Origin: Sulfuricella sp.
Lineage (GTDB): Bacteria > Pseudomonadota > Gammaproteobacteria > Burkholderiales > Sulfuricellaceae
Direction: 5' to 3'
Length of the DNA: 15,978 nucleotides
Assembly (NCBI GenBank): GCA_019911785.1
Contig: JAIOJM010000237.1
Location: forward strand, 1 to 15,978
The notes beneath the pieces are model-generated. The model saw only the letters and a program-made list of their open reading frames with translations, was not told where the DNA came from and searched no databases. This document shows positions 4,608-14,349 of the stretch, piece by piece (position 1 is the stretch's first letter; every line of letters begins with the position of its first letter). Position numbers and translations under genes: made by a program.

Positions 4608-5372
4608 ATGGCTAAATCCACAAAAGAGAGTGCACCAGATATGCCAAGCCTGTCTGATGCGCTTTCGGATCATCTGATTAGCAAGTCGAATTCGCTAGTC
4701 AGGGCGTCGTACAAACTCTCGCTCCAGGAACAGCGGTTAATCCTGGCTGCGATCAGCAAGCTGGATTCCCGAAAACTTGGCATTCGTCCAGGTCATGATC
4801 AATCACATGTGCGTATTACGGCTGCTGAGTTTGCCGAAACCTTCGGCATTTCCACAAAAAATGCGTACGATGAACTGAGATCGGCGACCAATGATCTGTT
4901 CGAGAGAAAAATCACCGAGATCGATGGCAAGCAGACCACGAAACTGCGATGGGTCAGCAAGGTGCGTTATCACGATGGCGAAGGGTGGGCGGATCTTACT
5001 TTTGCCCAGGATATCCTGCCGTATTTGACCCTGCTGAGAAAACAATTCACTTCTTACAAACTCAAGCAGGTTGCGGGTCTCCGAAGTGTTTACAGCATCC
5101 GCATCTTCGAGCTGTGTGCCCAGTTTGCCGAAACAGGTTTGCTGCGCATTTCTCTGGCTGACCTTATCACGAGCCTAGACCTTCCTTACACTCGCTACAT
5201 TGATATCGTACGACGCGTTATTCAGCCTGCTGTCGATGAGCTGCGTGTGAAATCCAATCTTGAAATCATCTGGCGGCCGATTAAAGAGGGTAGGGCGGTC
5301 AAAACTATTGAATTTCAATTTCACGAAGCCGCGCAACAAAAGCTCGAACTGGAGACCCCGCTTCCCGAATAG
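4608..5372 (+). CDS. repA: Rep_3-superfamily plasmid replication initiator
   Basis: The 254-residue protein fits the two-winged-helix initiators of iteron plasmids (Rep_3, as in pPS10, R6K and pSC101). The SNSLVRASYKLSLQEQRLIL motif (about residues 27-46) is the conserved start of the first domain; ITAAEFAETFGIS and AYDELRSATNDLFERKI follow. FTSYKLKQVAGLRSVYSIRI then leads into the second winged helix near residue 160, and the protein ends with a basic iteron-binding region (DIVRRVIQPAVDEL, then IIWRPIKEGRAV). It should bind the GTGACAAAAAGACGG repeats on both sides of the gene, open the A+T-rich tract and repress itself. The start ATG lacks a clear ribosome site and lies about 25 bases after the expected transcription start. 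The TAG stop shares its last base with a downstream iteron. The Rep function is well supported; symbol used generically. Confidence 0.93.
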   Translation: MAKSTKESAPDMPSLSDALSDHLISKSNSLVRASYKLSLQEQRLILAAISKLDSRKLGIRPGHDQSHVRITAAEFAETFGISTKNAYDELRSATNDLFERKITEIDGKQTTKLRWVSKVRYHDGEGWADLTFAQDILPYLTLLRKQFTSYKLKQVAGLRSVYSIRIFELCAQFAETGLLRISLADLITSLDLPYTRYIDIVRRVIQPAVDELRVKSNLEIIWRPIKEGRAVKTIEFQFHEAAQQKLELETPLPE

Positions 5373-6003: not shown

Positions 6004-6762
6004 ATGCTGAAAAAACCTTACTTTACCTTATTTAGCCATGCTCTTTCTGTTGCCGTTCTGCTGCTGGCTGCGGTCTCAACAAGCTTCGCCGAGAATGCGG
6101 ATTTCTCGCAATGCCGGCAGATGTTCGTTAATGGCCAACCCCCGACATTTCATAATCAAGCCATGGTGCCGAGGGCGCTATGTTACAGCAGCTTCGCGAT
6201 CCTGCATTCCGGAAAAAGATACACACCGATTTATGTGGCGGAACGACTCAACAAAACACAGGTTGAAGCCAAAGTGGCCCGGGCGACACGATTTTTTGCG
6301 GATGTCAGCCTGCCACGCGCGGAACGTGCCGAGTTAGAGGATTACAAGGATTCAGGCATGGATCGGGCCCATATGACCCCGGCTGGCGATATGGCAACGG
6401 AAGAGTCAATGGCGCAAAGTTTCTCACTGGCGAACATGGTGCCGCAATATCCTGTCAACAACCGCAAGTCATGGGCCAGTATTGAAAAGGCTACCCGCAA
6501 ATATGTGATGCGTGCTGCCGGGGATGTTTTTGTGATGACTGGTCCGGTGTTCGCGCCAAATCCCCCGACGATTGGATTAAACAAGGTCTGGGTTCCCCAA
6601 TATCTATTCAAATTGGTCTACGATCCCTCTACTCGGCGGGCATGGGTACACTGGTACACCAATGCCGATGATGCGCGCGTGGGAAAGCCGATCAGCTATG
6701 AAGTGAACTGGTTCGTCGAACTGGGATTGATTTTATGCCGGGAGCTATCCGGAAATGACTGA
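6004..6762 (+). CDS. Exported DNA/RNA non-specific endonuclease (NUC1/EndA-type)
   Basis: The 252-residue protein starts with a Sec signal peptide (MLKKPYFTLFSHALSVAVLL, cleavage near SFA-EN, residue 29). It then carries the beta-beta-alpha metal endonuclease core: DRAHMTPAGDM (residues 120-130) is the DRGH-type active-site motif with Ala in place of Gly, H123 being the general base. SFSLANMVPQ contains the metal-binding Asn (N144), and PVNNRKSW followed by VMTGPVF completes the family pattern. Enzymes of this family cut single- and double-stranded DNA and RNA in the periplasm or outside the cell, for nutrient scavenging, defence against incoming DNA, or in conjugation-related roles. Four cysteines suggest disulfides. 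Its last bases overlap the start of the disrupted gene at 6755. Family assignment is strong. Confidence 0.88.
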   Translation: MLKKPYFTLFSHALSVAVLLLAAVSTSFAENADFSQCRQMFVNGQPPTFHNQAMVPRALCYSSFAILHSGKRYTPIYVAERLNKTQVEAKVARATRFFADVSLPRAERAELEDYKDSGMDRAHMTPAGDMATEESMAQSFSLANMVPQYPVNNRKSWASIEKATRKYVMRAAGDVFVMTGPVFAPNPPTIGLNKVWVPQYLFKLVYDPSTRRAWVHWYTNADDARVGKPISYEVNWFVELGLILCRELSGND

Positions 6763-8196: not shown

Positions 8197-8961
8197 TCAC
8201 CGGCCGAGGCTGATCATGGTCAGTACCGTTGAATCCGGTAACCTTACAGACTGCGTGGTGACATCAAGCCGGTAAGCTTCACGTCCTGATACCCAGCGGT
8301 TAGCCGGTTCTGTTTTGGGTCGGGTCATTCCGCTTCCGCCCCCAAACGCCATTCCGAAGGCGTCGGTATCGTGGTGAAGCTCAGAAAGCACATAGAACTC
8401 GAACGGAAAGGAGCGGCTTCGCTGGTGCCACGCAAGTTTTGACTGTGAGTGACAAGCCAGACAGACAGGGCCGGTGGCTCGTTTGACCAGTTTGATCGCC
8501 GCAGCGGTCAGGCTGGCGTTGAACTCCTTGTGGAGCAGGGCAGCCACCTCCAGCGTAATTTTCCGCCCCTGCAGCCACGGGTCCACGAGGTACGTTGGCA
8601 AAATAAGCTGGCTTGCGTACCCATTGGCGTGAGCCTCAACGGACTTAGCTTCCGAGTTTTGGGGGCCGATGTCCTCCTTCGCGCACAGAAACGAGCCCGT
8701 TTTCCGGTCACAGATCCAATGGGCCAGCTCATGGGCAAGGGAGAAGCGCTGGCGGCCATCGTTGCTATTCGAGCTGACGCTGATGATGGCATTATCCCCT
8801 CGTGCGACCAGACGGGCCTCACAGCCACCCAGTGGGCGGTATTTTACTTCGGCCCCATTGTCGTTCGCGATGGCATCCAGATCAATTTGCGTTGGCTTGG
8901 TTATGCCATAGTTCCAGAGCAGACGCTCGGCGGGAGAAATCTGTTGAGGGTCAATGATCAT
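8197..8961 (-). CDS. ImmA/IrrE-family zinc metallopeptidase
   Basis: From the ATG at 8961 the protein has 254 residues. QRFSLAHELAHWICD carries the HExxH zinc site (H77, E78, H81), and SVEAHANGYASQLILP provides the third ligand (E109) in the usual ExxAN-FA-LL-P context of the ImmA/IrrE (DUF955) family. About 100 further residues follow the peptidase core, with two cysteines in VCLACHSQ that could bind zinc. Relatives cleave specific repressors to switch on genes (ImmA on ImmR in ICEBs1, PprI/IrrE on DdrO). I chose 8961 because it overlaps the stop of the upstream gene by 11 bases; the frame is open to 9000. It is the third gene of a sigma-factor operon, so its target may be the 138-residue protein, the sigma factor, or conjugates made by the divergent ubiquitin-like system (inference). 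Confidence 0.9.
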   Translation of the reverse strand: MIIDPQQISPAERLLWNYGITKPTQIDLDAIANDNGAEVKYRPLGGCEARLVARGDNAIISVSSNSNDGRQRFSLAHELAHWICDRKTGSFLCAKEDIGPQNSEAKSVEAHANGYASQLILPTYLVDPWLQGRKITLEVAALLHKEFNASLTAAAIKLVKRATGPVCLACHSQSKLAWHQRSRSFPFEFYVLSELHHDTDAFGMAFGGGSGMTRPKTEPANRWVSGREAYRLDVTTQSVRLPDSTVLTMISLGR

Positions 8962-9367
8962 GGTCGTCTGGCTTGATTGCTCCCATGGCCACCAAGTCAT
9001 CGTAGAGGCTCAACCAGTCGTCGTCCGTTTGCTTTTTCCCTCCCCGGAAGGCCAGCCCAAGGTCACGATCCGCCTGAAAGATGTCTTGAACGATTTGTTT
9101 GATCTTCTCCATGGGGGGGCGTGCAGCGAGTGGACTCCGCGTGCTCGGTCTTGATTGCATGCGTTCCTTCGCCAATACCATGCGATGTCGCAGGGCGGCA
9201 GCGGCGGATTCCTGCATGACAGTGCCAACTAATGCGGCAACCGCATCCAGATCCTTACCTTCGTCTATGGCCTCCTGCAGCAGCTGCTCGTCGGTTGTGG
9301 CCATCAAGTCATCCAGGGCTGCTTCACGAAGTGCCGCAAGCTCACTGCGAGTCTTCGAAGAATTCAT
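8951..9367 (-). CDS. Helical 138-residue protein of unknown function in the sigma/ImmA operon
   Basis: The protein runs MNSSKTRSELAALREAALDD and is nearly all helical and charged in its first 75 residues (DEQLLQEAIDEGKDLDAVAA, then AAALRHRMVLAKERM). A basic Pro/Ser-rich linker and an acidic C-terminal segment ending DDHDH follow. It has no membrane helix. The start overlaps the sigma factor stop as ATGA and its end overlaps the peptidase start by 11 bases, so the three genes are translationally coupled. Position between a sigma factor and an ImmA-type protease makes it a candidate soluble anti-sigma factor or protease substrate, as in ImmR/ImmA-type pairs, but no sequence motif proves that. 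Confidence 0.65.
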   Translation of the reverse strand: MNSSKTRSELAALREAALDDLMATTDEQLLQEAIDEGKDLDAVAALVGTVMQESAAAALRHRMVLAKERMQSRPSTRSPLAARPPMEKIKQIVQDIFQADRDLGLAFRGGKKQTDDDWLSLYDDLVAMGAIKPDDHDH

Positions 9368-10074
9368 GGTTTTCTCTTCTCTGGAAACAATTTATCAAGG
9401 CCACGCCGGAACCGTTTCCGTGCTGTTTCGTACTGGGTTTGCGCCATTCCCGAAAGCTCACGGATTTCGGATACCGATAATTCATCCTTGTGGCCCATAA
9501 TGACCCAAGTTACTTCACTGTCCACTGAAAAATAGGCGTCTATCTTGCTGACGATCTCTTTGGCCCGGTCTTGCCGTTCGCTGGTTTCCTCCAGTTCAAG
9601 GGCTTGGGTGAGCACGTCTACGTGGTGATGCTCAAACCGCCCCAGAACTTCTTCGGCGCTGGCTGTTTCCGTTGCCATGGCCTCCATGTAATCGGTTCTC
9701 GTCTGGACGGATGATTCCCGCGAATCATTGGCCAGCCCCTGAATCGTCTTGATCATATAGGCGATGAATGGGATATTCTTGGGCCAATGGCGCCCCTTCT
9801 CGTCGCTGGCAGCGTTCATCGTCCGGACAATCGCTTCGTTAATGATTTCCTCTGGATCCTGGTACTCGGAACCCGGCAAACAATATTTGGCCGCTTTGAG
9901 AATGCGGTAGAGCTCTACCTTCGAGAGTGCGCCGATGGCCTGGCGAACATCTTCAGGTGTTGCTGCATCGTCCGGTGTGTCGTCAAGTTCCAAATCTTTT
10001 CCCTTTGCCTTTCTGGAGTATGCGGAGAACTCCCGAGATCCGGACATGCTAATGGTGATGTCCGGGTTTTTCAA
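9364..10074 (-). CDS. Sigma-70-family (ECF-like) RNA polymerase sigma factor
   Basis: The 236-residue protein shows a region-2-like block, EYQDPEEIINEAIVRTMNAA then WPKNIPFIAYMIKTIQGLAN (about residues 74-117), which is the pattern of ECF sigma factors (DxEDxVQE, then FxAxLxxxxRN). A region-4-like HTH lies at the C-terminus, ELSVSEIRELSGMAQTQYET then ARKRFRRGLDKL. An unusually long N-terminal extension rich in Asp and Lys and an acidic inter-domain linker set it apart from minimal ECF factors. The frame starts at a TTG (10072-10074) with GGAA nearby; an ATG at 10047 is the alternative and lacks a ribosome site. It is first in an operon with a 138-residue protein and an ImmA-type peptidase, and divergent from the ubiquitin-like operon, whose promoter it may recognise (inference). 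Confidence 0.75.
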   Translation of the reverse strand: MKNPDITISMSGSREFSAYSRKAKGKDLELDDTPDDAATPEDVRQAIGALSKVELYRILKAAKYCLPGSEYQDPEEIINEAIVRTMNAASDEKGRHWPKNIPFIAYMIKTIQGLANDSRESSVQTRTDYMEAMATETASAEEVLGRFEHHHVDVLTQALELEETSERQDRAKEIVSKIDAYFSVDSEVTWVIMGHKDELSVSEIRELSGMAQTQYETARKRFRRGLDKLFPEKRKP

Positions 10075-10143
10075 CTGTTCCGCATATATCAGTAAGCAGC
10101 CTCATTGTGTGGCTGAGCAAATCCATTCCAAGGAGAAAACACT
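10075..10143. promoter_or_regulatory. Divergent promoter region between the sigma and ubiquitin-like operons
   Basis: Only 69 bases separate the two starts, so both promoters are here or reach into the coding ends. An inverted repeat, CAGCC (10097-10101) and GGCTG (10111-10115), may be a protein-binding site. AAGGAG (10130-10135) is a strong ribosome site eight bases before the ubiquitin-like gene. I cannot identify -35 and -10 boxes of the ordinary sigma-70 type, which would be expected if a dedicated sigma factor is used. Confidence 0.4.
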
Positions 10144-10413
10144 ATGTCAAACAGTAATTCCAGTCAGGCTCCCGGTCAAAACAAGATTTCTATAATCATC
10201 GTCAATGGACGCCAGCGTGAAGTCAGCGGCCACAAGCTGAGCTATTCTGAAGTCGTATCTATTGCCTTCCCGGATGACCAGCCGGATCCCAACATCCTCT
10301 ATACGGTGGCCTACGCAAACCCTCACGGTAAAGATGGTACGTTGGTCGAGGGGCAGGATGTCGAAATCAAGAATGGGATGAGCTTCAATGTCTCCAAAAC
10401 AAATCGTTCTTAA
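10144..10413 (+). CDS. Ubiquitin-like modifier (Multi_ubiq-type beta-grasp domain)
   Basis: The 89-residue protein has a short Ser/Asn-rich lead and then a single beta-grasp domain: KISIIIVNGRQREVSGHKLS (strand, turn, strand), YSEVVSIAFPDD (the helix), NILYTVAYANPHGKDGTLVE and DVEIKNGMSFNVSKTNRS (last strands). The pattern ITIxVNGxxxEV, SYxEVVxLAF, YTVxYxxxxGxxxGxLxxGxxVxVKxGMxFNVxxTxxS is that of the prokaryotic multi-ubiquitin family. The C-terminus is TNRS, not GlyGly, so activation must use a different tail chemistry, trimming, or the domain may not be conjugated through its C-terminus. A strong AAGGAG precedes the start. The E1-like gene begins within its last 26 bases. Confidence 0.85.
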   Translation: MSNSNSSQAPGQNKISIIIVNGRQREVSGHKLSYSEVVSIAFPDDQPDPNILYTVAYANPHGKDGTLVEGQDVEIKNGMSFNVSKTNRS

Positions 10414-11590
10414 TCCCGACATCATGCGCCTGCTGGATAAGGGGTATGAGGTTGATGTCCAGAACGGACATTTGCTCATTCATGCAGTTCCCTATGTCAA
10501 CGCCCAGTGCGCTGTACTGAGGGGGACCATCGTGACGGATATTAGTGAGAATGCAGGTGAGTTGCTTCCACCCAAAGATCATCAGGTCTGGTTTGTCGGT
10601 GAGTACCCTTGTCACCATACAGGCGCCCCCATAGAGCCTATTCGTAATACCTCAAATGCCCATCATCTCTGGGAAGGTTTTATCGCCCAGCACCGGTTTT
10701 CCAACAAACCGCATGGGGCGAGTAACTACCCGGACTATTATTCGAAGATGACCGCTTACATTCAGATCATCTCGAGTGAGGCCAATGCGATCGATCCGGA
10801 CGCAGATCCTCGCACATTCCGGGTAATACCACCCCACGATGAGGACTCGGTGTTTCGTTATCGGGATTCCGCGTCAAGTCGGGCGGATATTCTGGCCCTT
10901 TCAAGGAAGTTGGCCAAGGGGCGGGTTGCCATTATCGGTATGGGCGGCACGGGGTCATACGTGCTGGATCTGGTGGCCAAAACGCCAGTTCGGGAACTAC
11001 ATCTGTTCGATGGGGATGCCTTTCTCCAGCACAATGCCTTTCGGTCACCCGGGGCCGCTTCGTACGAAACCCTGGATAAAAAATTGCCGAAGGTGATCTA
11101 CTATCAACAGGTCTATGACGCCATGCGTAAAGGCATCATTCCTCACGGCGAGTACGTTACCAGGGAAAACATCGAGCAGCTTGCCGGATTCGATTTCGTC
11201 TTCCTGTGTGTGGACAAGGGGCCTGTTCGGAAACTGGTCAGCGAATACCTTCAGGCGCAAGGCATCCCATTTATTGATGTGGGAATGGAGCTAATGATGG
11301 TCAATGAAGAACAAAGTCTGATCGGGACATGCCGGGTGACGATGAGTACCCCCGAGCATTCTGCACACTTTCCAAAGCATGTGCCCATGATGGACGATGC
11401 CGCTGATGATTTGTATCGCAAGAATATCCAGGTCGCCGATATGAACGCGCTGAATGCGGCGATGGCCGTCATCAAATGGAAGCAGTTCTGCGGCTTCTAT
11501 CAGGACAACTATCGGCCGCTCCATACCACTTACTCCATCAATTCCCAGTCAATGACTCGGGACGAGATGGTAGGGATACCCGCCGAATGA
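10388..11590 (+). CDS. E1-like ThiF-family adenylyltransferase with N-terminal DUF6791-type domain
   Basis: The 400-residue protein has two parts. Residues 1-150 (LLDKGYEVDVQNGHLLIHAV, PYVNAQ, HQVWFVGEYPCHHTGAPI, FSNKPHGASNYPDYYSKMTAY) match the DUF6791 module that precedes ThiF domains in bacterial ubiquitin-like operons. Residues 160-360 are the Rossmann-type E1 fold with GMGGTGS (184-190) for ATP, LFDGDAFLQHNAFRSPG (D208/D210, N216, R219) for Mg-ATP and adenylation, and DFVFLCVDKGPVRKLV as the next strand. C274 and C315 are candidate thioester cysteines, but I cannot tell which, if either. There is no fused E2 or JAB domain. Expected role: adenylate the ubiquitin-like protein's C-terminus and pass it on. 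Its start overlaps the modifier gene by 26 bases and its stop overlaps the next gene as ATGA. Confidence 0.88.
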   Translation: MSPKQIVLNPDIMRLLDKGYEVDVQNGHLLIHAVPYVNAQCAVLRGTIVTDISENAGELLPPKDHQVWFVGEYPCHHTGAPIEPIRNTSNAHHLWEGFIAQHRFSNKPHGASNYPDYYSKMTAYIQIISSEANAIDPDADPRTFRVIPPHDEDSVFRYRDSASSRADILALSRKLAKGRVAIIGMGGTGSYVLDLVAKTPVRELHLFDGDAFLQHNAFRSPGAASYETLDKKLPKVIYYQQVYDAMRKGIIPHGEYVTRENIEQLAGFDFVFLCVDKGPVRKLVSEYLQAQGIPFIDVGMELMMVNEEQSLIGTCRVTMSTPEHSAHFPKHVPMMDDAADDLYRKNIQVADMNALNAAMAVIKWKQFCGFYQDNYRPLHTTYSINSQSMTRDEMVGIPAE

Positions 11591-12051
11591 AGCTGACAAC
11601 GGTAACGCCGAAATTTGTGGAATTTATTCCCGACAAACTCAGTGATGGCGTTCTTTACATCAGTGAGCGCTACCACACAGCTTCCCACAAATGTTGCTGC
11701 GGTTGCGGTGAGGAGGTTGTCACTCCTCTGACGCCGGCCGATTGGTCGCTGCGCAAGGATGGGGATGTTGTGACCCTTCACCCCTCAATCGGGAATTGGA
11801 GTTTTGCCTGCCGGTCCCACTATTGGGTCCGGCGCAACAAAGTTGTATGGGACGGGGCTATCTCTCGGCGGCAAGTTCAGCGGGTGCGGGCTCGCGATCT
11901 TGCAGACAAGGAGGCATACGTCGCTTCCGTTAATCGCAATAAGGGCCAGCCGAGAAAACCGGTTTCAGCATTCCCAAAGCCAGTCGGCACAGCGAGTACT
12001 AGCGTGCTTCATCAATTGTGGACGTCCTTCATCAAATGGTTGAATCATTGA
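11587..12051 (+). CDS. DUF6527-type Cys-rich protein, third component of the ubiquitin-like operon
   Basis: The ATG at 11587 overlaps the E1 stop as ATGA, giving 154 residues; the frame is open to 11476 but that part lies inside the E1 gene. The signature is SHKCCCGCGEEVVTPLTP (C36, C37, C38, C40) followed by LHPSIGNWSFACRSHYW (C75, H78), which matches what I know of DUF6527 proteins found beside ThiF and multi-ubiquitin genes. The Cys/His set could bind zinc, like a treble-clef or rubredoxin-like knuckle, or include a reactive thiol that takes the modifier from E1. The C-terminal third is basic and ends in a hydrophobic helix (VLHQLWTSFIKWL). Since the operon has no E2 or E3, this protein is the best candidate for that role, as inference only. 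Confidence 0.8.
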   Translation: MKLTTVTPKFVEFIPDKLSDGVLYISERYHTASHKCCCGCGEEVVTPLTPADWSLRKDGDVVTLHPSIGNWSFACRSHYWVRRNKVVWDGAISRRQVQRVRARDLADKEAYVASVNRNKGQPRKPVSAFPKPVGTASTSVLHQLWTSFIKWLNH

Positions 12052-12455: not shown

Positions 12456-12680
12456 TCAGACAGATGTCCGCAGCCTGACCCCGAAATCCGCAACCCCTAG
12501 CTTGAACAACAGCTTTGCCGTCGCATCCAGCGTCTTGAACTCCCGAGGTTCCTTTTTGCCGGTCTCCAGCGGCTTGCCATCGGCCACGATCATGTAGCCC
12601 TGCGACATCACCGCATAATGCACCTGCACCTGTTTGATGGCACACGCATCCAGCAGGAGTTTCAGTTCACGTTCGGTCAT
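12456..12680 (-). CDS. Small protein of unknown function, second gene of the XRE operon
   Basis: The 74-residue protein MTERELKLLLDACAIKQVQV continues HYAVMSQGYMIVADGKPLET and ends in FKTLDATAKLLFKLGVADFG. The layout (helix, beta-hairpin carrying a GYMIVADGKPL strand, then an FKTLDxxAKLL helix and a final strand) is one I have seen in small plasmid- and ICE-associated proteins, but I cannot name the family. Its start overlaps the stop of the XRE gene as ATGA, so the two are co-translated. Not obviously toxic or membrane-bound. Confidence 0.65.
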   Translation of the reverse strand: MTERELKLLLDACAIKQVQVHYAVMSQGYMIVADGKPLETGKKEPREFKTLDATAKLLFKLGVADFGVRLRTSV

Positions 12681-12934
12681 GGCGTCTCCTGTCTGGAAGA
12701 AGATTGAGGTTCCTGCGTCTCGAAAAGATCGCCCTGATCGACCAGCTCTATGAGGTCGCCGGGCTTGACCTTCAGAAAGCGGCAGAGCTTGTGCAGCACT
12801 TCACGGTCATAGCTTTTGACGCGGTCGTAGTAATAGCGGTCGATCGTGGCGCGAGCAATGCCGGTGGCGCGGCAGACATCGGAAACCTTGATGCGTCGTG
12901 CGCCCAGCAGGGTGGAAAGCTTGCAAGTGATCAT
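12677..12934 (-). CDS. XRE/Cro-type HTH transcriptional regulator
   Basis: The 85-residue protein is one compact Cro/C1 helix-turn-helix domain. KLSTLLGARRIKVSDVCRAT provides helices 1-2, GIARATIDRYYYDRVKSYDR the recognition helix and turn, and VLHKLCRFLKVKPGDLIEL the closing GDL-type helix typical of the YozG/HTH_26 group. A short acidic and Ser/Gln tail follows. No ribosome site is visible before the ATG, so it may be translated from a leaderless or weakly initiated message. A perfect palindrome at 12950-12969, 16 bases upstream, is its likely operator and suggests autorepression, perhaps also control of the divergent phosphoesterase pair. Confidence 0.8.
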   Translation of the reverse strand: MITCKLSTLLGARRIKVSDVCRATGIARATIDRYYYDRVKSYDREVLHKLCRFLKVKPGDLIELVDQGDLFETQEPQSSSRQETP

Positions 12935-13083: not shown

Positions 13084-14349
13084 GTGCGTTTCATTCATTG
13101 TGCTGACCTTCACCTCGACAGTCCGCTGCGCGGTTTGGAACGCTACGAAGGCGCACCGGCACAGGACATGCGGGAGGCGACACGCCGTTCGTTCACCAAC
13201 GTCATTGATCTTGCCCTGGAGCGGGAAGTTGATTTCGTCCTGATCGCGGGGGACATCTTCGACGGTGACTGGCTCGACTTCAACACCGGGCTGTTTTTCG
13301 CGAACCAACTGCGTCGCCTTGCCGATGCCGATGTCCGTGCCTTCATTGTCCGCGGTAACCATGACGCTTTGAGCAAGATATCCAAGGCCGTGACGCTGCC
13401 AAAGAACGTGCACGTGTTCAAGTCAAATAAGCCCACCACGATCCTCGACGAAAATCTCGGCTTCGCCATCCATGGCCAGAGCTTCGCCACCGGCGTGGTG
13501 ACGGACGATCTTGCCGCCCAGTATCCGGACGTACATTCCGGGCTCCTCAATATCGGTCTTCTCCACACGGCCCTCGCCGGTCGTGAGGGCCACGAATCCT
13601 ATGCGCCGACAACGCCAGAGCGCCTCATCGGCAAGGGCTACCACTATTGGGCGCTGGGCCATGTCCATACGCGTGAGACCGTACGACAAAATCCCTGGAT
13701 CGTTTTTCCCGGCAATACCCAGGGACGGCATGCCCGCGAAGTCGGACCGAAAGGCTGCGTGGTCGTGGAAGGTGACGCGGACGAAGGTATCCGTTCCGTC
13801 GAGTTTGTCGCAACGGATGTCGCGCGTTGGCAGCACCTGACCCTGGATGCGACCGACGTTGCGAACCTGGATGATCTTCAGGCGGCTGTTCAACAAGCCG
13901 TGCGTGGCGCCGTGCTGGAGTCCGGCGACCGCCTGCTGGCATTGCGGATCTCTGTCGGCGGGCGGACACCGCTGCACGGCAAGCTTGCAGGCAGCCCGGA
14001 AAGTTTTCGGGCGGAGGCCTGCGCCTGGTTGAACGAAGCCTCGGGCGGCACGGCCTGGCTGGAAAAGATCAAGCTTTCGGTGTCAGCCCCGATGGACCTC
14101 GCGGCGCTGGCAACGCGGGACGATCCCTTCGGCATCCTGTTGAGGCGTCTCGATGAGCTCGCCGCCGACCCGGAGGGATTGGCCAGGTTGGCGGAATCAG
14201 CCCTGTCGGAACTCGAACAAAAAATCCCTGCCGAGCTGCGCGAAAGGGACGCGCTGTTGAAGCCGCTTTCGGAGGAGGTTCGCGCCGAGGCGCTGGCGTC
14301 GGCGCGGGAACGGCTTCTCGCCGCGATTTCCCTGGAGGGGTCGCAATGA
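13084..14349 (+). CDS. SbcD/YhaO-like metallophosphoesterase (DNA exonuclease family)
   Basis: The 421-residue protein has the full calcineurin-like metal site of Mre11/SbcD nucleases: CADLHLD (D8, H10), LIAGDIFD (D57), RGNHDAL (N92, H93), GLLHTAL (H161) and LGHVHTRE (H193, H195). After the catalytic domain (about 1-215) comes a capping and C-terminal region of alternating strands and helices that likely docks the partner ATPase. Start is a GTG with AAGGGA six bases upstream, so a non-ATG start is well supported. The stop overlaps the ATG of the ATPase gene as ATGA. The closest general model is the YhaO/YhaN pair, an SbcCD-like complex acting on DNA ends. Base composition from here to the window end is visibly more GC-rich than the preceding 13 kb. 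Confidence 0.88.
   Translation: MRFIHCADLHLDSPLRGLERYEGAPAQDMREATRRSFTNVIDLALEREVDFVLIAGDIFDGDWLDFNTGLFFANQLRRLADADVRAFIVRGNHDALSKISKAVTLPKNVHVFKSNKPTTILDENLGFAIHGQSFATGVVTDDLAAQYPDVHSGLLNIGLLHTALAGREGHESYAPTTPERLIGKGYHYWALGHVHTRETVRQNPWIVFPGNTQGRHAREVGPKGCVVVEGDADEGIRSVEFVATDVARWQHLTLDATDVANLDDLQAAVQQAVRGAVLESGDRLLALRISVGGRTPLHGKLAGSPESFRAEACAWLNEASGGTAWLEKIKLSVSAPMDLAALATRDDPFGILLRRLDELAADPEGLARLAESALSELEQKIPAELRERDALLKPLSEEVRAEALASARERLLAAISLEGSQ

Follow-up and report, generated by a model that had tools for sequence, protein, structure and literature searches.

Bacterial ubiquitination-like (Bub) operons are regarded as putative immune pathways, with phage protection reported as undemonstrated, and come with several transcription controllers: CapW or CapH+CapP at 219 of 544 operons and CapK+CapS at 59 of 544, none of sigma-factor type being described in the excerpts of the source used here (PMC13373217). 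In the CapH+CapP pair, single-stranded DNA is reported to activate the peptidase CapP, as it does PprI (PMC10904395), and activated CapP to cleave CapH (PMC10904395, PMC13373217); in the Calp system of type III CRISPR, the activated Lon protease CalpL cleaves the anti-sigma factor CalpT and thereby frees the sigma factor CalpS (PMC12751052). Here we analyze a 15,978-nucleotide stretch of Sulfuricella sp. DNA (the window), in which a Bub-type operon faces, within 8197..12051, a divergent trio of genes for an extracytoplasmic function (ECF)-like sigma factor, a helical protein of 138 amino acids (p138), and a CapP-type peptidase. We consider it fairly probable that this left arm is a portable controller, exchangeable between immune operons and no part of the modification chemistry, which works as a CapP-gated sigma/anti-sigma switch on both arms; that the left arm controls the right one at all, be it through such a switch or through a split repressor, is very likely.

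The sigma-p138-CapP trio and its cargo

All six open reading frames (ORFs) are present in the two divergent arms that an earlier, sequence-only reading of this DNA had described: on the minus strand those of the M78 peptidase, p138, and the sigma-like protein, and on the plus strand those of a Multi_ubiq protein, an E1 with DUF6791 and ThiF domains, and a DUF6527 protein, with the M78, Multi_ubiq, DUF6791, ThiF, and DUF6527 domains recovered by Pfam. The overlaps between neighboring genes inside each arm hold as well and measure 4 to 26 bases, given a peptidase start at 8961. That start is the most likely one, as it yields 254 amino acids and matches the annotated length in a Polaromonas relative; a longer alternative begins at 9000.

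Sequence matches establish the ImmA/IrrE (M78) zinc peptidase (8197..8961, minus strand) as CapP, the proteolytic partner in a transcription controller: it matches Pfam Peptidase_M78 at 3.5e-12, the CapP structure (PDB 7t5t) at 5.9e-8, and PADLOC capP at 7.4e-53, the last along almost the whole protein (residues 23-265 in its 267-aa form), and the HExxH motif, HELAH in the window, is intact in the peptidases of 22 of 22 trio loci. In a survey of 399 Burkholderiales genomes, capP hits at E <= 1e-20 fell in 41 genomes, and the 38 best (E <= 4.8e-48) were classified, with ten weaker matches (1.2e-33 to 9.4e-21) left out. Upstream of these 38 lay an XRE-type CapH in 34 cases, the sigma trio in three, and neither in one (L102), and the sigma and p138 profiles matched at none of the 35 non-trio capP loci, 34 of them with XRE CapH. 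The XRE CapH alignment finds its best PDB match in 7t5u, and its C-terminal part matches 7t5v and 7t5w, all three of which we take to be CapH structures.

Beside the window CapP this usual XRE repressor is missing, and its place is taken by the sigma factor and p138 (8951..9367, minus strand), in which Pfam finds no helix-turn-helix (HTH) domain. PADLOC capH is nonetheless matched at E <= 0.05 by 25 of 30 p138 family members (best 4.1e-5; window p138, 0.0086), and no other family is matched by more than one of the 30, while a profile-profile comparison (hhalign) of p138 with XRE CapH is not significant. The AlphaFold model is all-helical (pLDDT 77); Foldseek returned no credible fold match for it in the PDB, nor did the p138 profile find a credible match among PDB sequences. 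The C-terminal half of p138 may weakly resemble CapH, and we infer that the protein may serve as an anti-sigma factor cleaved by CapP.

The third left-arm protein (9364..9993, minus strand; 209 aa) is established as an ECF-like sigma factor by its homologues, its fold, and its promoters, since the window protein alone is invisible to Pfam: no sigma domain is seen in it, only a weak HTH_28 match (0.023), and by itself it reaches no curated cut-off. Among its family, 14 of 36 members match TIGR02937 (sigma70-ECF) at E <= 0.05, the best at 2.6e-7; the family profile (A1) also picks out, in the unrelated genome of L017, an ORF (9.7e-5) that looks by eye like a classical ECF sigma factor; and, among four homologues of the sigma factor of L015, JGI names two sigma24. 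The 50 matches listed by VIA-align all bear titles of sigma factors or transcription complexes, with sigma region 2 superposing at 2.8 A over 83 residues (5uxx) and region 4 at 2.7 A over 75 residues (1rp3). The sigma profile matched nothing among PDB sequences, and no sigma relatives were found in the viral contigs searched. The sequence-only reading had called this protein a sigma-70-like factor, but with a start at TTG 10074 that lies upstream of its own promoter. The gene very probably starts at TTG 9993, preceded by AAAGGG, because the leftward -10 element (10019-10025) lies upstream of this codon and downstream of the longer starts TTG 10074 and ATG 10047, either of which would precede its own -10, and because 209 amino acids is the commonest length among the homologues (20 of 50). 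The divergent gap therefore spans about 150 bases rather than the 69 first read and holds two promoters. Separately, sigma relatives without p138 or CapP alongside were found at L132, L133, L135, L136, L137, and L138, with one TGTCCG-N15-GCGCATA site upstream of the relative in L136.

The linkage of the three genes is firm: adjacent and in the same order, they occur at 22 loci including the window, although the searches rank by sigma similarity and sample mostly one order, so that the 22 are not an unbiased census. A DNA search found the left arm, at ~69% identity, on Polaromonas and Rhodoferax plasmids, facing DUF2188 genes instead of Bub, the Polaromonas match spanning window 8211 to 10100 only. 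Searching plasmids with tblastn added L028 and L029, the sigma alignment, used to scan genomes, brought in seven loci (L007-L013), the 399 Burkholderiales contributed L015, and 379 genomes of one family yielded 13 matches, 11 of them new and nine of these trios (L124-L131, L134); 398 Pseudomonadota sampled phylum-wide gave no new trio, and L032 was reached via its Bub operon. Excluded before counting were loci with no p138 or CapP (L016/L138, L017, L029, L132, L133, L135, L136, L137) and second or shorter copies (L014 and L106, of L010; L030 and L052, of L015; L056 and L019, of L032; L111, of L011; L112, of L012; L113-L123, of L124-L134), whereas L013 was retained despite its truncated sigma gene (127 aa).

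What the trio faces differs from locus to locus. Bub operons account for four of the 22 (the window, L007, L008, L032). The full set of six genes is found again in Limnobacter (L007) and Geothrix of the Acidobacteriota (L008), with E1 proteins 63% and 68% identical, and, more distantly related, in L032, which argues that the six-gene layout is not due to chance. One further locus (L134) faces a ubiquitin-like (Ubl)-E2-E1-DUF6527 operon, whose Ubl match (0.001) does not reach the Pfam cut-off. Four face CBASS operons: L015, with a cyclase match of 2.3e-138; L125, with a cyclase, an HNH-SAVED effector, and E1-E2; L128, with DUF2188, a phospholipase, a cyclase, E1-E2, and JAB; and L130, with a cyclase, E1-E2, and a SAVED nuclease. 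DUF2188 with a TIR (Thoeris-type) gene is found at another four, L010, L012, and L126 by PADLOC ThsB and L127 by Pfam TIR_2 (3.6e-13), L010 additionally carrying a SIR2 protein that is ThsA-like (9e-19). DUF2188 without a recognized effector is found at five (L001, L002, L009, L011, L124), in L001 with an IS21 element between it and the trio; altogether, the family is present in the cargo of 10 of the 22 loci. The remaining four face nothing recognized as immune: L028 two small genes and L131 a 313-aa gene, none with a family match; L129 (L129:212-6392) phosphoenolpyruvate (PEP) carboxylase and an EAL-GGDEF protein as the nearest recognized genes; and L013 an aldehyde dehydrogenase and an FAD oxidoreductase among the genes scanned. 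On well-supported branches of the peptidase tree the cargo label changes at least twice for Bub, at least three times for CBASS, and at least twice for ThsB, and the cargo has therefore been exchanged. Past DUF2188, three loci encode a conserved Cys-containing protein of ~150-170 residues with no Pfam match (L009:1506-1970, L011:3305-3763, L124:6106-6624), a candidate effector.

The inverted promoter pair

In the divergent gap of the window, motif comparison places two inverted copies of TGTCCG-N15-CCGCATA, one per arm: a predicted leftward promoter for sigma-p138-CapP (10019..10046, minus strand) and a predicted rightward promoter for the Bub operon (10059..10086, plus strand). The same pair was present in nine of the first ten gaps read (the window, L001, L002, L007-L012) and absent from the tenth, L015. 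When up to two of 13 mismatches per site and a spacer of 15-16 bases are allowed, it occurs at 15 of 22 trio loci versus none of 48 control loci (551,775 bases), which comprise trio-less Bub loci and capP loci of the other kind; single sites in these controls number none with fewer than two mismatches and 30 with two. Six of the 15 (L028, L124-L128) are independent of the motif definition, and the sigma factor of L028 is only ~25% identical to that of the window over the matched part, yet the pair is there. Its conservation is thus established, and because it accompanies the trio and is absent from controls, it couples the two arms, which bears out the sequence-only view that they belong together and makes it probable, as that reading also held, that the sigma factor of the left arm drives expression of the right arm.

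Four other loci (L015, L129, L130, L131) each have an exact pair of their own, TGTCCA-N17-CGCCAT in the case of L015, of a kind seen in 3-13 of 1000 Markov-resampled sequences and in none of 34 control regions (350-base stretches lying 350-700 bases ahead of capP matches, or approximately upstream of XRE capH). No promoter pair was found in L013, the locus with the truncated sigma gene, L032, or L134. Away from the trio, the exact motif occurs five times in eight trio genomes versus seven times for the reversed pattern, and the classical GGAAC...CGTC was dropped as the motif, its matches being only scattered. DNA homology with Polaromonas pPNAP05 stops at window 10100, just beyond the rightward promoter.

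In form, the two inverted copies are those of predicted ECF-style promoters, with the sigma operon carrying a bipartite promoter of its own upstream. We propose that the sigma factor would recognize TGTCCG-N15-CCGCATA and fire both divergent promoters, that of its own operon and that of the facing cargo, here Bub. In the resting cell p138, as an anti-sigma factor, would keep it inactive; DNA damage or phage infection would give rise to single-stranded DNA and activate CapP, which would then cut p138, and the released sigma factor would switch the cargo on with positive feedback. The anti-sigma role, the cleavage of p138, and the single-stranded DNA signal are inferred, the signal being carried over by analogy from CapP and PprI.

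The same sites can be read differently. As a split CapH repressor, the sigma-like protein would be a DNA-binding subunit that, together with p138, binds the inverted sites and represses both arms until CapP cleavage derepresses them, leaving a housekeeping sigma factor to transcribe the cargo. In favor of this, the two sites form a single inverted array, p138 bears a faint likeness to CapH, and a search for sigma-70-like sites does return one weak leftward site overlapping the region (shuffle mean 0.3). However, the same search found no sigma-70-like promoter towards the cargo in the window's divergent region, and sigma regions 2 and 4 are both kept, whereas one DNA-binding domain would suffice. 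The sites are moreover bipartite, with a fixed -35/-10-like spacer (15 bases at 14 loci, 16 in L028) and a distance between the two copies that varies from 10 to 15 bases, as expected of promoters and not of one operator. We therefore consider a split repressor unlikely and retain the sigma/anti-sigma switch.

The Bub operon and the setting of the locus

The right arm is, judging from its domains, a Bub-type operon of published kind, predicted to carry out conjugation. Its first gene (10144..10413, plus strand) encodes a Multi_ubiq ubiquitin-like protein (Pfam 2.6e-17; PDB 9cd2, a multi-ubiquitin protein, 2.4e-7) with a single beta-grasp domain and a C-terminus, ...KTNRS, without Gly-Gly; the second (10388..11590, plus strand) an E1-like enzyme with an N-terminal DUF6791 (8.1e-55) and a ThiF adenylation domain (4e-14); and the third (11587..12051, plus strand) a Cys-rich DUF6527 protein (6.2e-25). 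Like other Bub operons, it thus combines a Multi_ubiq protein, a ThiF-type E1, and associated genes. The best PDB match of the E1 is Citrobacter BubCD (9ea5, 3.5e-6), and the nine-member E1 profile (A7) likewise aligns to it over the ThiF part alone: unlike in BubCD, the N-terminal part is a DUF6791 that does not align, and the third gene is DUF6527. A Pfam scan of 14 window proteins shows no separate E2 or JAB, unlike in Bil, so the absence of both noted from sequence holds for that scan, but a missing E2 activity is not thereby established, given the DUF6791 in the E1. In L134 (L134:3878-6642) the trio faces genes in the order Ubl, Prok-E2_E (4.1e-12), E1, and DUF6527, an arrangement that suggests that the DUF6791 of the window E1 may replace the E2.

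The sequence-only reading would have taken the two arms for chance neighbors had the sigma and ImmA genes almost never accompanied such operons. They are indeed rare there: of 10 DUF6791 loci in the 399 Burkholderiales, only L032 carries the trio; at the other nine, as at four plasmid Bub loci, neither the sigma nor the p138 profile matches; and in 123 plasmid records with an E1 homologue, tblastn at 1e-3 found no sigma gene beside it. The test was wrongly aimed, because an exchangeable controller such as the sigma arm is expected to be rare among Bub operons. Other Bub operons indeed have other neighbors: WYL regulators in L037 and L038, a kinase-type ATPase with a winged HTH (wHTH) partner resembling CapK/CapS in L036, an XRE gene that fits the CapH profile and adjoins an M78-type gene in L031 and L035, and, as far as examined, an HTH gene and others in L039 and L040. 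Near two Bub operons an M78 peptidase is fused to a UvrD helicase and a PD-(D/E)XK nuclease (L033:9862-13236, L034:9978-13361).

The window is probably plasmid DNA, since it encodes a Rep3-family replication initiator at 4608-5372 (Pfam 5e-42). It also carries an IS200-like Y1 transposase (2364-2792, 4.1e-44); a DNA/RNA non-specific endonuclease (6004-6762, 4.1e-41) whose N-terminus looks by eye like a signal peptide and which is possibly secreted; a minus-strand HTH_26 gene (12456-12934) that overlaps a 74-aa gene without Pfam match and might form a small regulator pair with it; and a calcineurin-like phosphoesterase (13084-14349, 2.6e-14), SbcD-like by eye, that may start a DNA repair or further defense operon.

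With the Rep3 initiator here and L001, L002, and L028 all on plasmids, the trio could instead regulate its own mobile element, for example plasmid transfer, the facing operons being incidental; four of the 22 loci facing nothing recognized as immune, with PEP carboxylase opposite the trio in L129, and the distant sigma-like genes that lack p138 and CapP (L132, L133, L135-L138) would fit such hitch-hiking. A copy of the sigma motif is nevertheless directed at the cargo at 15 loci whose cargoes differ, and immune operons, known or predicted, make up 13 of the 22 cargoes; we regard this reading as very unlikely, and plain chance neighborhood is ruled out by the common promoter pair together with the full layout in Acidobacteriota. 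That the ImmA protein takes part in the modification chemistry by releasing or reversing ubiquitin-like conjugates, with the sigma factor only driving expression, as first modeled from sequence, is hardly credible: the six genes do stand together at four of 22 loci, encoding closely related proteins in the window, L007, and L008 and distant ones in L032, but the trio faces CBASS, TIR, or DUF2188 genes at 13 of 22, 34 of the 38 best Burkholderiales capP matches adjoin XRE CapH, nine of the 10 DUF6791 loci lack the trio, and a deconjugating role for the peptidase, which is a CapP, is rejected because inspection of the cargo revealed no ubiquitin-like gene at 17 of the 22 loci.

Comparison with known controllers

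The layout was at first thought to have no assigned function, which no longer holds for the right arm, a Bub operon of the kind described in the excerpts of PMC13373217; for the left arm, no sigma-type CapP controller was found in searches of the open-licence PMC literature. On balance we favor the view that the trio represents a class of immune controller not described so far, in which a sigma/anti-sigma switch gated by CapP would use a common promoter pair to activate Bub, CBASS, TIR/Thoeris-type, and DUF2188 operons. Activation as such is not new in the field, a WYL-type activator that responds to genotoxic stress having been reported (PMC10693628). The controllers covered in the excerpts of PMC13373217 (CapW, CapH+CapP, CapK+CapS) act by de-repression, whereas a sigma-based one would activate with positive feedback. 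If the proposal is true, DNA damage would license many different defenses by self-amplifying transcription rather than by repressor loss, and a single protease family would be wired to two kinds of transcription control. The promoter signature could then be used to find new defense operons, DUF2188 becomes a concrete candidate defense gene, and induction of Bub operons by DNA damage becomes directly testable.

Like the left arm, CapW and CapK+CapS are exchangeable regulators found upstream of Bub, CBASS, and other immune operons (PMC13373217); unlike them, the three left-arm proteins contain no WYL, kinase, or STAS Pfam domain. The likeness to CapH+CapP extends to the peptidase family itself, nearly full length, to the small partner gene that precedes the peptidase, and to the position beside interchangeable immune operons. 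In place of the XRE repressor, however, the left arm has a sigma factor and the helical p138, a replacement that makes control by activation, not de-repression, probable. With Calp the proposed trio would share the whole logic of a signal-activated protease, a cut anti-sigma factor, and a released sigma factor (PMC12751052). The two differ in the protease, an M78 metallopeptidase in the trio and, as far as the same source excerpts describe it, a Lon protease fused to SAVED and sensing cyclic tetra-adenylate (cA4) in Calp, and no CRISPR gene is recognized among the 14 window proteins scanned. If the proposal holds, the trio would amount to a metallopeptidase-based equivalent of the Calp switch of CRISPR.

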